A DNA stretch of 64,000 bases from Chitinolyticbacter albus (GTDB taxonomy: Bacteria > Pseudomonadota > Gammaproteobacteria > Burkholderiales > Chitinibacteraceae), in contig NZ_JANBVF010000030.1 in assembly GCF_024437655.1 (NCBI RefSeq), positions 1-64,000 on the forward strand, given 5' to 3'. The first letter of the stretch is position 1; the number at the start of each line of letters is the position of its first letter. Positions 54,781 to 58,469 of this stretch are shown here, piece by piece. The notes under the pieces are model-generated. The model had not been told where the DNA came from, did not search any database, and saw only the letters and a list, made by a program, of their open reading frames with translations. A program made the translations under genes and the position numbers.

Positions 54781-56106
54781 ATGAGCGAGGGTGGTAAGCA
54801 AGCAGTCTGGGGAAGGAACGGGCCGTACCGTTTTGTCGTCATGGTGACTGGCTTGATGGCGGTAACGCTGCTGCTGCTGGCGTGGCACGCGTTTGGCATG
54901 AATCGCACCCTGCGGTTCGATGCGAGCAGCAAGGTGCCGGCCGTGGCCATCGATGATCGCAGCGAGGGCGGAGCCTCCACCTCCCGGCTGATACGCACCC
55001 CGGATGGCGTGGGCGTCGAGTGCGATATCCGCATGAAGTACCAGTGGCCGTACTGCGAGCTTGCGCTGGAGATCGGGGAGCCGCAGAAGGGCATCGATCT
55101 CTCGGTGTTCGATACCGTGGTGCTGGATATCGATTATCAGGGCCGCAGCGAGCGCGTCCGGGTCTACCTGTCCAATTATGACCCGGCCTATTCGCGCAAG
55201 GACAAGCCCGTCTCGAACAAGGTCAACCAGCTGTCCTACGATCCCAAGCGCTACCCGCAAGGCCTCACCGTGGGTCTGGATTATTTCACGGTGGCTGGCT
55301 GGTGGGCCGAGGAAATGAAGCTGCCGCTCGAGCATTCCCAGCGCGACTTGCGCCATGTGGTGAAGATTGAGCTGGCCACCGGCGAAATCATCGAGCCCGG
55401 TCCGTATCGCATCGTGCTGCGGTCCATCGAGTTTCGCGGCAAGTGGTTACCGGCCTCGCAGCTGCGGCTTTTCATCATCGCTTTGTGGCTGGTGGCGGCC
55501 TTGGTGTACCTGGCCATGGCGTTCAAACGTGCCCGCGGGGCCTTGGTATTGGCGCGCCAGCGCGAACGCGATCTGGCGGAGCTGAATCAGAGCCTGCAGA
55601 TCAAGGGCGAGGAGCTGGAGCATGTGGCGCACCATGACGAGTTGACCGGTGCGCTAAATCGCGCAGGCGCGCGTGACCTGCTTTATGACGGCTCGCGTCG
55701 CTCGCAACAGGACGGGCGGCCGATGTCCTTGCTGTTTATCGATCTTGACCACTTCAAACAGATCAACGATCGATATGGCCATGCGGCAGGTGACGAAATC
55801 CTGGTGCATTTCACGCGCATCGTGCTTGCGGCGACGCGCAGCCACGATCATCTGGTGCGCTGGGGGGGCGAGGAGTTCTTGCTGATCCTGTCCGATGCCA
55901 CGCTGCCGGCGGCAGTGCAACTGGCCGAGAAGCTGCGCAGCGCTCTGGCGGCTGCGCGATGGCCGCATGCAGATTCCGTGACGGCCAGCTTCGGGGTCGC
56001 CGAGCTCAAGCTGGAGCGGGTGCAGGATTGCCTGGAGCGGGCGGACGCCGCGCTCTATCGCGCCAAACAGGCTGGCCGCAACCGGGTCGAATCGGCCGGC
56101 GCCTAG
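54781..56106 (+). CDS. membrane diguanylate cyclase with periplasmic sensor
   Basis: A 441-residue protein. A membrane helix (about 17-38) leads into a periplasmic beta-rich domain (about 40-220, with LRFDASSKVPAVAIDDRSEGG and VVLDIDYQGRSERVRVYLSNYDPAYS), resembling a carbohydrate-binding or galactose-binding sandwich. A second helix (about 226-247) and a coiled-coil lead to a GGDEF domain (about 275-440) with HHDELTGALNRAGARDLL, FIDLDHFKQINDRYGHAAGDEIL and RWGGEEFLLIL. It should be an active c-di-GMP synthase. The stop overlaps the cysC-like gene on the other strand by 4 bases. Confidence 0.9.
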   Translation: MSEGGKQAVWGRNGPYRFVVMVTGLMAVTLLLLAWHAFGMNRTLRFDASSKVPAVAIDDRSEGGASTSRLIRTPDGVGVECDIRMKYQWPYCELALEIGEPQKGIDLSVFDTVVLDIDYQGRSERVRVYLSNYDPAYSRKDKPVSNKVNQLSYDPKRYPQGLTVGLDYFTVAGWWAEEMKLPLEHSQRDLRHVVKIELATGEIIEPGPYRIVLRSIEFRGKWLPASQLRLFIIALWLVAALVYLAMAFKRARGALVLARQRERDLAELNQSLQIKGEELEHVAHHDELTGALNRAGARDLLYDGSRRSQQDGRPMSLLFIDLDHFKQINDRYGHAAGDEILVHFTRIVLAATRSHDHLVRWGGEEFLLILSDATLPAAVQLAEKLRSALAAARWPHADSVTASFGVAELKLERVQDCLERADAALYRAKQAGRNRVESAGA

Positions 56107-56633
56107 GGTGGGACGCCCAGCGCCGGGCAGTGGGCCAGCAGGCGCACGAGGCAGGTTTCGAGTGCCAATGCATCGGTATCGAGCATCAGGGCGTCTGCCG
56201 GAGCCTCGTATGGCGCATCAACCCCCGTCAGGCCGCGCAGGGTGCCGGCTCGGGCCGCGGCGTACAGTCCCTTGGGGTCTCGTGCCTCGCAGATCGCGCG
56301 CGGTGGATTGCACCAGACCTCGATCAGCCCGTTGCCCAACATGCTACGCAATGCGGCACGATGCGCTGCCAGCGGCGTGACCAGCGCCAGCAACACGATA
56401 TGCCCTTCCCGGCGCAGGCCGGCCGCCATGGCGCCCGCTCTCCGCGCCTGTTCCAACCTGTCGGCATCAGTGTATCCCAGGTCGACACAGGGGCCGGCGC
56501 GCAGCACGTCGCCATCCAGTACCCGGCACGACCGGCCTTGCCGTTCGAGCCAGGCGGCGAGCGCGAACGCGAGCGTGGACTTACCGGCGCCGGGCAGGCC
56601 GGTAAACAACAGCGCGGGTGGCGAAGCGGGCAT
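56103..56633 (-). CDS. cysC: adenylylsulfate (APS) kinase
   Basis: A 176-residue kinase that phosphorylates APS to PAPS, the sulfate donor. Walker A is LLFTGLPGAGKSTLAFALAAWLE (residues about 8-30). The family motifs are LDGDVLRAGPCVDLGYTDADRLEQARRAG (APS-binding), VLLALVTPLAAHRAALR, EVWCNPPRAICEARDPKGLYAAARAG and LTGVDAPYEAPADALMLDT. All key APS-kinase motifs are present. It is divergent from a hydroxylase-sulfotransferase pair and no sulfate-assimilation genes (cysD, cysN, cysH) are adjacent, so it probably supplies PAPS to that sulfotransferase. The start at 56633 matches the family; the frame upstream is not conserved. Confidence 0.9.
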   Translation of the reverse strand: MPASPPALLFTGLPGAGKSTLAFALAAWLERQGRSCRVLDGDVLRAGPCVDLGYTDADRLEQARRAGAMAAGLRREGHIVLLALVTPLAAHRAALRSMLGNGLIEVWCNPPRAICEARDPKGLYAAARAGTLRGLTGVDAPYEAPADALMLDTDALALETCLVRLLAHCPALGVPP

Positions 56634-56694
56634 CGTTGGCGGGCTGGCGGAAAACCCGCCTAGAATGCGGCAACGCCAACCCATTGTCATCCCT

Positions 56695-57495
56695 ATGACG
56701 GATCTGCCCCTTGCTGCCCGCCTGCCGCCGCGTTTCGATGCGGACCTGCTGTCAGCGCTGCTCGTCGCGGTGCCGCACGACGCGTGGACCGAGCACTTCA
56801 ATACCGGCTACTACCTTGGTAGCTGGTCCGGCGCCGCACTCGTCGCCCCCGCCGCGGCCCATACGCCGCTGGCGCCGCCTGGGCGCGACGAGGAGGTGGT
56901 CGATACGCCATTGCTGCACGCCCAGCCAGGCTGGCGGGCCGTGCTCGATGCCGTGCCGGGAACGGTGCGCAGCGCCAGGCTGCTGAAGCTCGCACCCGGC
57001 TCGCGCATCCTGGAGCATGCCGATCCCGATCTGGGCGATCCGCTGGGTGATCTGCGCCTGCATATCCCGCTGCAGACCGACGACGCGGTCGAATTCTGCG
57101 TCGCGGGCCGGGTGATGCCGTTGCGGGTGGGCGAGTGCTGGATGCTGGATCTGTCGCAGCCGCATCGCGTGGACAACGACAGCGCGCGCGATCGGGTCCA
57201 CCTGGTGGTCGACGTGCGCCGTGGCCCGGCACTGCTGGCAGCGATCGCGGCAGGCCTGTCGGATACCCCCGCATCCCAGCCGGCACGCGGCGAGCGCGAG
57301 CTGGCGCGGCTGCGCGCTGCCGTCGTCACCGATCCGGTTCTGGTCACGCGGCTGGCGGCGATCACCGATGGCGCAGCGTTCCGTGCCGCGACGCTACAAC
57401 TGGCGGCAGAGTACGGACTTCATCTCACCGAAGCCGATCTCGTCGGCGCAATGCGGCGTGGTCGGCGCGACTGGATGGCGCAATGGATAGTCTGA
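56695..57495 (+). CDS. 2-oxoglutarate/Fe(II) hydroxylase, aspartyl/asparaginyl beta-hydroxylase type
   Basis: A 266-residue protein. The catalytic core (residues about 75-180) shows the cupin-type fold of aspartyl/asparaginyl beta-hydroxylase and proline cis-hydroxylases: LLKLAPGSRILEHADPDLGD and RLHIPLQTDDAVEFCVAG. The facial triad can be placed as His108, Asp110 (HAD) and His157 (LSQPHRVDN), with Arg167 (DRVHLVVDV) the likely 2-oxoglutarate anchor. The C-terminal extension (about 190-266) is helical and unassigned. It likely hydroxylates an amino acid, peptide or lipid. A TAGAAT -10-like hexamer lies upstream (56661). It overlaps the sulfotransferase by 13 bases, forming a tight operon. Confidence 0.82.
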   Translation: MTDLPLAARLPPRFDADLLSALLVAVPHDAWTEHFNTGYYLGSWSGAALVAPAAAHTPLAPPGRDEEVVDTPLLHAQPGWRAVLDAVPGTVRSARLLKLAPGSRILEHADPDLGDPLGDLRLHIPLQTDDAVEFCVAGRVMPLRVGECWMLDLSQPHRVDNDSARDRVHLVVDVRRGPALLAAIAAGLSDTPASQPARGERELARLRAAVVTDPVLVTRLAAITDGAAFRAATLQLAAEYGLHLTEADLVGAMRRGRRDWMAQWIV

Positions 57496-58469
57496 GTCCC
57501 GCTTTCCTGGCGCAGCCGGGCTGGTTGCCGATCCGTGCGCATGATTCGGCCGGGCAATGGCGGCTGGACTGGGCCTGGTTCGGCGCCACGCCGCTCGATG
57601 CACCGTTCTATCGGGACAGCGTCGAGGATGCCTTGCGCCTGCCGTTCAACCAGGCGTTGCGCCCGGGCTGCACGCTGGAACAGCTAGCGGCAAGCGATCA
57701 TCCCAAGGCGCCGCTTACCGCGCTGGTCTATCACGCGTCGCGCTGTGGCTCGACGCTGATCGCGCAGATGCTCGCCACCCTGCCCAGCCATGCGGTCTAC
57801 GCCGAGGCGATGCCGATCGACCAGTTGCTGCGCGCGCGCTATCACGATGCCGGGCTGAGTGAAGCAGCGCAGATCGACGGCCTGCGCGCGCTGGTGACGG
57901 CGCTGGGGCGGCCCCGGCGCGCCAGCGAGACCCGGTTGGTGCTCAAGCTTGACGCCTGGAGTATCGCCGAGGCGCATCTGCTGCGCACGGCGTATCCGGG
58001 CGTGCCGGCCATCTTCCTCTATCGCGATCCGATCGAGATCGTCGTCTCGCATTTGCGCCAGCCCGGCGTGCATACGGTGCCGGGGCTGATCGGCGTCTCG
58101 CCGATGTGGGAGGAGTTGCCAGCGACGTTGCCGCGCGTGGAGTACATCGCGCGGGTGATAGGCCGCATCCTGCAGGCGGGGCTGACCGAATGCGCGAGCG
58201 GCGCCATGCGGCCGGTGAACTATACCGAGCTGCCTGGCGTGGTACTGGGTGAGCTCGCGCCGCTGCTCGGCGTGGACGCCGCGCAGGTCGAGCAGATGCG
58301 CGCCGCGAGCACGCGCAATGCCAAGCACCCGCAACAGGCGTTTGCCGCGGATGGCGCCGACAAGCGTGCCGAGGCGGGCGCAGCGGTGCGCGACGCGGTG
58401 GCACGCTGGGCGGCGCAGCCCTACGCTGCGCTGGAGGCCTTGCGCAGCGAGGCGCGCCTTAGCCGATGA
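57483..58469 (+). CDS. PAPS-dependent sulfotransferase-like protein
   Basis: A 328-residue protein. The PAPS 5'-phosphosulfate loop is ALVYHASRCGSTLIAQML (residues about 80-97, SRCGSTLI at 86-93). The 3'-phosphate site is IFLYRDPIEIVVSHLRQPG (about 177-195). A C-terminal region (PVNYTELPGVVLGELAPLLGVDAAQVEQM) fits the NodH/sulfotransferase pattern. An N-terminal extension of about 75 residues (QPGWLPIRAHDSAGQWRLDWAWFG) may bind the acceptor. It overlaps the hydroxylase by 13 bases and lies 0.9 kb from the divergent APS kinase. The acceptor is unknown. Confidence 0.82.
   Translation: MDSLSPAFLAQPGWLPIRAHDSAGQWRLDWAWFGATPLDAPFYRDSVEDALRLPFNQALRPGCTLEQLAASDHPKAPLTALVYHASRCGSTLIAQMLATLPSHAVYAEAMPIDQLLRARYHDAGLSEAAQIDGLRALVTALGRPRRASETRLVLKLDAWSIAEAHLLRTAYPGVPAIFLYRDPIEIVVSHLRQPGVHTVPGLIGVSPMWEELPATLPRVEYIARVIGRILQAGLTECASGAMRPVNYTELPGVVLGELAPLLGVDAAQVEQMRAASTRNAKHPQQAFAADGADKRAEAGAAVRDAVARWAAQPYAALEALRSEARLSR

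Follow-up and report, generated by a model that had tools for sequence, protein, structure and literature searches.

A hydroxylase–sulfotransferase cassette in Chitinolyticbacter albus, a possible tailoring arm of a collar-protein export cluster

The window analysed here, a stretch of 64,000 nucleotides of Chitinolyticbacter albus (contig NZ_JANBVF010000030.1, positions 1 to 64,000), carries a gene for an adenosine 5'-phosphosulfate (APS) kinase that is transcribed divergently from a 2-oxoglutarate/Fe(II) hydroxylase gene, which is followed on the same strand by a sulfotransferase gene. We put forward, as an interpretation with somewhat under an even chance, that this cassette serves as the tailoring arm of an export cluster for secreted proteins, in which the C-terminal asparagine (Asn) of collar-domain proteins is hydroxylated and then sulfated. 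The parts of this interpretation differ in strength. That the hydroxylase–sulfotransferase pair modifies some protein of the cluster is probable, and the case for a collar protein as the substrate is evenly balanced. Asn as the modified residue is a tentative assignment, and the placing of hydroxyl and sulfate on the same atom is held with equal reserve. In the proposed mechanism, the APS kinase would supply 3'-phosphoadenosine 5'-phosphosulfate (PAPS), the hydroxylase would oxidise a collar residue, most likely the C-terminal Asn (...FPSRN-COOH), and the sulfotransferase would cap the new hydroxyl with sulfate. A Nif11-like module may hold the enzymes together or dock the substrate, and the modified collar would then be exported or assembled with a giant protein of the cluster. 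As guesses, the mark could give the tip of a surface fibre a different charge or serve as a check before export.

A preliminary description of the window had read the three genes as a trio that adds a hydroxyl group and then sulfates it. The identity and position of all three are borne out by Pfam and TIGRFAM scores, motifs and predicted folds, as is the 13-base overlap between the hydroxylase and sulfotransferase genes (Table 1). Named genomes were scanned with an alignment of the sulfotransferase, and the best 80 of 316 confirmed stretches were kept (75 from Pseudomonas, 1 from Stutzerimonas, 2 from Chitiniphilus and 2 from Andreprevotia). The hydroxylase lies directly upstream of the sulfotransferase in 80/80 of these loci, its frame being split in two in one (L043; L, G and C handles denote loci, genomes and contigs). 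A scan of named-genome contigs with the single hydroxylase sequence found no relative. Among 250 genomes of the order, 14 hydroxylase matches were obtained at an expectation value (E) of 1e-5, seven of them full-length, including that of C. albus itself, and the sulfotransferase adjoins the hydroxylase in all six full-length relatives. A phylum-wide draw of 398 genomes contained 10 with the sulfotransferase at E 1e-20, with the hydroxylase adjacent in 9/10; in G467, no hydroxylase occurs within 18 kb of the sulfotransferase. Within Pseudomonas, 48/199 sampled genomes have the hydroxylase, with the status set at E 1e-40, at which a very divergent copy would be missed.

The C-terminal extension of the hydroxylase provides a further connection between the two enzymes. 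Residues ~198-262 match the Nif11 family (PF07862) with 19.8 bits and E 1e-3, under the cut-off of 23.8, the hydroxylase family profile matches the solved Nif11 protein 9zn4 (E 1.6e-4), and the structural model places four helices at 198-262. This Nif11-like module had been missed in the preliminary description. Using a profile of 95 hydroxylase C-termini, the module was found in the hydroxylase of all 80 named loci, from which the profile was itself partly built. In G122 it is a separate gene of 72 residues between the hydroxylase and the sulfotransferase (E 6.5e-16), in G462 it stands at the N-terminus of the sulfotransferase (E 5e-6), and weaker matches are found at the same place in G272 and G467 (E 1e-3 and 7e-3). 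Its fusion to either enzyme argues that the hydroxylase and the sulfotransferase work together. The idea that the module is the precursor of a ribosomally synthesized and post-translationally modified peptide (RiPP) was dropped, because its conserved short end, R.GR..W..QW, looks like part of the fold and not like a variable core.

The genes around the Pseudomonas pair encode a GNAT, HlyD-type, M50/HlyD and TolC-like proteins, proteins with DUF6916 or collar domains, and a giant protein with DUF4347 and an N-terminal motif that we take to be LEPR-like; a second sulfotransferase is frequent in these clusters. At least one of six cluster seed proteins occurs in 73/80 named loci (5-17 kb each), with genes called by a crude script from longest frames and codon GC content, and the GNAT matches may include unrelated GNATs. 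DUF4347 is present in 48/48 hydroxylase-positive and 37/151 hydroxylase-negative Pseudomonas genomes; of the 85 genomes so counted, one, hydroxylase-negative, is under the family cut-off, and the hydroxylase and DUF4347 draws are taken as the same 199 genomes (same centre, rank and number, with agreeing handles where listed). The hydroxylase and DUF4347 genes are at most 11 kb apart in 43/48, and in the other five they are on different contigs of draft genomes. In C. albus itself, the single DUF4347 match and the single collar match stand side by side on contig C56, in a cluster (~102-118 kb) that runs GNAT, collar, giant DUF4347 protein, then a TolC-like, two HlyD-type and an M50/HlyD protein. 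Three other pair-bearing members of the family (G177, G208 and G238) likewise carry the cluster at a different place in the genome. A fourth, G099, is without DUF4347 and M50/HlyD and has three collars with GNAT and DUF6916 genes; G082 likewise combines the pair and three collars without DUF4347. In three family members lacking the hydroxylase (G004, G054 and G139), no match to DUF4347, the M50/HlyD protein or the collar domain was found. When the 250 order genomes are ranked by their match to the M50/HlyD protein of C. albus, the top five belong to five of the six relatives with a full-length hydroxylase, and G032, which has no hydroxylase, all but equals the fifth (819.5 versus 819.6 bits). 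More distantly, the pair adjoins collar, GNAT and DUF6916 genes in G272 and G462, and the sulfotransferase of G467 adjoins a collar gene and a DUF6916-like gene, the latter recognised by eye.

The collar domain was found in 25/27 genomes with the hydroxylase or the sulfotransferase (8/9 and 17/18 in the two sets), and the collar proteins of pair-bearing genomes usually have the C-terminal tail FPSRN, which varies where the pair is absent. This tail was first noticed in mixed data and then tested on newly fetched stretches. Where the hydroxylase is present, a collar ending in RN was found in 20/20 loci and in 11 further genomes, the latter leaving out G238 and G659, which had been read earlier. 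Where it is absent, no RN tail was found in G644, G687, G717, G776, G813, G058 and G180, one was found in G734, and G032, at first seemingly negative, has a second collar that ends FPSRN. In Pseudomonas, at least one RN-ending collar occurs in 31/31 genomes with the hydroxylase versus 4/16 without (Fisher 3.5e-8), or 31/31 versus 5/16 under the looser rule that a collar ends in Asn. Counted per collar protein, the last residue is Asn in 34/36 with and 6/21 without the hydroxylase, and the proline (Pro) three residues before the Asn is kept in 35/36 and 21/21, respectively. Pooling the genera gives 53/53 versus 5/21 genomes (Fisher 3e-12), and the genera outside Pseudomonas by themselves give 15/15 versus 1/5 (p 0.001), in tests that treat genomes as independent. 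The 53 include G467, with its sulfotransferase and no hydroxylase nearby, and one RN tail sufficed in multi-collar genomes (1/3 collars in G099, 1/3 in G768 and 2/3 in G082). The collars of L031-L107 end RN wherever they were read to the stop; so that no species was counted twice, they do not enter the pooled figures. The 80 named loci include at least three contigs that also occur among the G genomes (L030 is G208, L032 is G177 and L109 is G099). Rows were dropped for long open reading frames ending CIKY (L148, L166 and L269) or IQAF (L259), for wrong-frame RTPPC (L134, L147 and L164), for an RATL match (L274) and for open ends (L112 and L113), and hydroxylase-negative loci showing no collar (9/19 and 14/20) are outside the denominators. 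In the collar tree, rows without the pair are nested among pair-bearing rows in three places where the Asn is lost: the tails are FPSRS or FPSRG in G722, G776 and G813, FPPHD in G627 and, on a branch with incomplete support, FPSRG in G644.

Several observations weigh against this interpretation. In C. albus the cassette and the cluster are unlinked, the pair lying in the window and not on C56. Collars are also present in 4/14 control genomes and in 5/5 hydroxylase-negative genomes that were picked for their M50/HlyD relative, and none was found in G122 and G250. The RN tail is kept in five hydroxylase-negative genomes (G797, G630, G734, G735 and G032), of which G734 is also nested among pair-bearing rows and G735 keeps an apparent sulfotransferase remnant, and it occurs in 4/13 plasmid loci that have collars and no hydroxylase nearby, as judged on the plasmid stretch only. 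In a tree-corrected test, eight supported independent pairs differ in the hydroxylase; the Asn follows it in 4.1 of them on average, runs counter to it in 0.5 and does not differ in 3.4. The median p of 0.22 is not significant, in a test that is underpowered. The link between the hydroxylase and the Asn tail is thus strong in raw counts and of the right direction on the tree, and not proven after correction. As for the pair itself, it stands on opposite strands in the distant genomes G272, G462 and G491, L155 has the sulfotransferase and a collar with no hydroxylase in 18 kb, and two Pseudoalteromonas plasmid loci (L210 and L283) have the hydroxylase and collars and no copy of this sulfotransferase within 18 kb. 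In one of the latter, P. piscicida plasmid NZ_CP074588.1 (L210:8887-13444), the gene after the hydroxylase is methyltransferase-like, its domain matches being weak (Methyltransf_25, E 4e-5, under the cut-off), and GNAT, DUF6916 and three collar genes come next; the other was read only for tails and the two enzymes. All three collars of these hydroxylase-bearing plasmid loci end RN, a point in favour of the collar Asn as target. The swapped partner fits a variably capped hydroxyl, and it fits two independent marks too. A full two-step route, in which the C-terminal Asn of secreted collars is hydroxylated and the hydroxyl sulfated by enzymes joined through the Nif11-like module, with a methyltransferase-like second step in Pseudoalteromonas, is on balance rather unlikely. 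Of the single hydroxylate-then-sulfate system first proposed, the joint working of the enzymes is favoured by their co-occurrence (80/80 and 9/10), the gene overlap and the shared module, while an obligate two-step route is at odds with L155, L210, L283 and the opposite-strand pairs; that the hydroxyl made is the very one sulfated is still something we infer.

The two enzymes were also compared with known families and folds. The hydroxylase matches PF05118 (Asp_Arg_Hydrox) with E 2.8e-15 and 56.9 bits (cut-off 22.6), and its metal triad His108, Asp110 and His157, which keeps the numbering of the preliminary description, is invariant across 45 aligned sequences, together with Arg167. It falls far under the cut-offs of the LpxO model NF033391 (29.2 bits, cut-off 500), the OlsC ornithine-lipid hydroxylase model (12.4 versus 450) and the nonproteinogenic amino acid hydroxylase model (27.7 versus 300). 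Its structural model is confident (mean predicted local distance difference test, pLDDT, of 94.8). In sequence, L-proline cis-4-hydroxylase comes nearest among proteins of solved structure (E 7e-21), and it is also the top Foldseek match; the structural comparison leaves proline hydroxylases, AspH and a nucleoside beta-hydroxylase nearly tied (Z 16.3-17.9). L-proline cis-4-hydroxylase (4p7w), proline 3-hydroxylase (1e5r) and AspH have the oxygenase fold and metal triad in common with the window enzyme, which differs in its Nif11-like C-terminal module, its sulfotransferase partner and a substrate that is proposed here from context. The sulfotransferase scores 19.9 bits against Sulfotransfer_3 (PF13469; cut-off 27), and its relatives in L153 and L157 score 31.1 and 32.1 bits. 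Both PAPS motifs described earlier are present: SRCGST (86-91), Arg181 and Ser189 are invariant in 46 aligned sulfotransferases, and we take the former for the 5'-phosphosulfate loop and the Arg/Ser for the 3'-phosphate motif. Its model has a sulfotransferase fold (mean pLDDT 94.2), and its first 13 Foldseek matches are tyrosylprotein sulfotransferases. VIA-align likewise ranks these highest (Z 15.9-16.6, next family 14.6), at 15-17% identity, with TPST1/2 as the closest solved folds (Z 16.6, root-mean-square deviation 3.2, 224 residues). The window protein differs from TPST1/2 in this low identity, in an extra N-terminal extension (~1-72), which was barely covered in the fold look-up and not searched alone, and in having a partner hydroxylase. 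A protein substrate for the sulfotransferase is plausible from these comparisons, with the reservation that a shared fold shows no function.

These results bear on four other explanations. The giant DUF4347 protein could itself receive both modifications, on its repeats for instance, with the collar a mere neighbour. Since DUF4347 co-occurs with the hydroxylase just as strictly in Pseudomonas (48/48, 43/48 within 11 kb), collar and giant are indistinguishable there, a point that also weighs against the collar; moreover, no other likely secreted product is as large as the giant, whose gene often has a second sulfotransferase gene next to it. We nevertheless consider it an unlikely substrate, given G099 and G082, which have the pair and three collars each without DUF4347, the 37/151 hydroxylase-negative Pseudomonas genomes that have DUF4347 all the same, and the Asn tail, which is a feature of the collar. 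Only slightly less probable is a sulfotransferase that acts on an ordinary tyrosine (or serine/threonine) of a cluster protein, in the manner of RaxST/RaxX, with the hydroxylase leaving a separate mark. The proximity of its model to tyrosylprotein sulfotransferases speaks for this, as do the loci in which either enzyme occurs without the other (L155, L210 and L283) and the opposite-strand pairs of G272, G462 and G491; the constancy of the pair (80/80 loci, 9/10 in the phylum draw), the 13-bp overlap and the Nif11-like module common to both enzymes speak against it.

Kinship to L-proline cis-4-hydroxylase in both sequence and Foldseek ranking raises the prospect of a proline hydroxylase, with free proline or the conserved Pro within the FPSRN tail of the collar as its target. 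That the closest solved sequence relatives act on free proline is a further point against the collar Asn as target, and it could also suit a C-terminal residue with a free carboxylate. Proline hydroxylation is improbable in our view, as collars have the tail Pro whether or not the hydroxylase is present (35/36 versus 21/21), which does not hold for the Asn (34/36 versus 6/21), and as the structural near-tie extends to AspH and the nucleoside hydroxylase. A small molecule or lipid as the hydroxylated and sulfated product, finally, is very improbable: relatives in the fold family act, by model names, on lipid A, ornithine lipid and amino acids, yet the LpxO, OlsC and nonproteinogenic amino acid hydroxylase models are all far from matched, and the partners found in the genomes are proteins that are secreted or serve in export. 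The original list of candidate substrates (amino acid, peptide, lipid A or small molecule) is narrowed in the same way, with lipid A disfavoured by the model scores and a protein favoured by the partners.

The APS kinase turned out to be the optional member of the cassette. It matches Pfam APS_kinase (PF01583; E 8e-45, 153 bits, cut-off 21.1) and TIGR00455 (152.3 bits, cut-off 138.7) and has the P-loop GLPGAGKST. Its start is placed at the ATG at 56633 in preference to 56801, because the longest frame would cover the hydroxylase start (56695-56801). Within the stretches examined, an APS kinase is present in 34/80 named loci (same strand: 28 upstream; opposite strand: 4 upstream and 2 downstream); it is divergent in 4/6 full-length hydroxylase relatives of the order sample and retained without the pair in G627, G722 and G776. 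The three genes as a fixed unit were therefore rejected, and 'trio' is too strong a word: the co-occurrence first expected of all three holds for the hydroxylase and the sulfotransferase. C. albus has two APS kinase matches, one of them in the cassette. The CysH of the same genome has a CC + CxxC cysteine pattern, which is that of the APS reductase type; sulfate assimilation should then need no PAPS, so that both kinases look like suppliers of sulfotransferases. A kinase dedicated to sulfation, as suggested earlier, is in keeping with this pattern and with both kinases lying near sulfotransferase domains, and sits less well with the lack of an APS kinase within the stretches examined of 46/80 related loci. 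The second kinase, on C56 (L019:5111-6394), is fused behind a sulfotransferase-like domain whose motif was recognised by eye, in a lower-GC setting with sugar-nucleotide and glycosyltransferase-like genes, also judged by eye; it is perhaps part of a separate sulfation system with a surface glycan as target.

Table 1. Features of the cassette, in window coordinates
Feature	Position	Strand	Basis or remarks
APS kinase (CysC-like, 176 aa)	56103..56633	-	PAPS from APS; family-model scores
Divergent intergenic stretch, kinase/hydroxylase, 61 bp	56634..56694	.	Coordinates of flanking genes
2OG/Fe(II) hydroxylase (2OG, 2-oxoglutarate), 266 aa, Asp_Arg_Hydrox fold	56695..57495	+	Triad His108, Asp110, His157, plus Arg167
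Nif11-like C-terminal four-helix module of hydroxylase, residues ~198-266	57286..57492	+	Profile match and model
13-bp overlap, hydroxylase stop/sulfotransferase ATG (57483)	57483..57495	+	Read from sequence
Sulfotransferase, 328 aa	57483..58469	+	SRCGST (86-91), Arg181/Ser189; N-terminal extension ~1-72

A bacterial sulfotransferase reported to sulfate a protein that is then exported is represented by RaxST/RaxX with RaxABC in Xanthomonas (PMC4216712). In contrast to RaxABC, the genes read in the present cluster include no recognised ABC transporter. The Rax system modifies tyrosine and is not known to have a hydroxylase partner, and the two systems are likened here by description. Another partial likeness is to RiPP export of the daptide/NHLP type: the daptide intramembrane metalloprotease model gives 158.7 bits with the M50/HlyD fusion of C. 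albus (L123:14431-16542), under the cut-off of 300 set for that model. Full-text searches, with most subscription papers and preprints outside their scope, yielded no title or opening of an abstract on the coupled modification or on a cluster of collar, DUF6916, DUF4347 and M50/HlyD proteins. If the collar Asn is indeed hydroxylated and sulfated, coupled hydroxylation–sulfation would join the known bacterial protein modifications, and proteins would gain a new end group in C-terminal O-sulfo-hydroxyasparagine. It would also give a function to the hydroxylase of 48/199 Pseudomonas genomes and a first handle on the export cluster. The prediction names a single end residue.

Other sulfotransferases accompany related clusters. 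In L173 (7622-8458) and other Pseudomonas clusters, the giant DUF4347 gene is immediately preceded by a different one (Sulfotransfer_3, E 2e-14), and in L203, L205, L206, L227 and L229 the second sulfotransferase and an APS kinase are kept without the hydroxylase–sulfotransferase pair. In L027 (1299-7177), L153 and L157, collar genes lie near lasso-peptide-like genes, such as those for PqqD, an HprK-related kinase, asparagine synthase and a transglutaminase-like protein, along with another sulfotransferase. These lasso-like genes are not taken as part of the cluster core, since none was noticed in the C. albus cluster or in those Pseudomonas clusters that were read one gene at a time, except for an asparagine-synthase-like gene that follows the pair in L181, recognised by eye. 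On a conjugative plasmid of Burkholderia anthina (L211), a collar gene stands directly before a DUF4347 gene, near a phage tape-measure gene, and part of the cluster core is thus carried by a plasmid.

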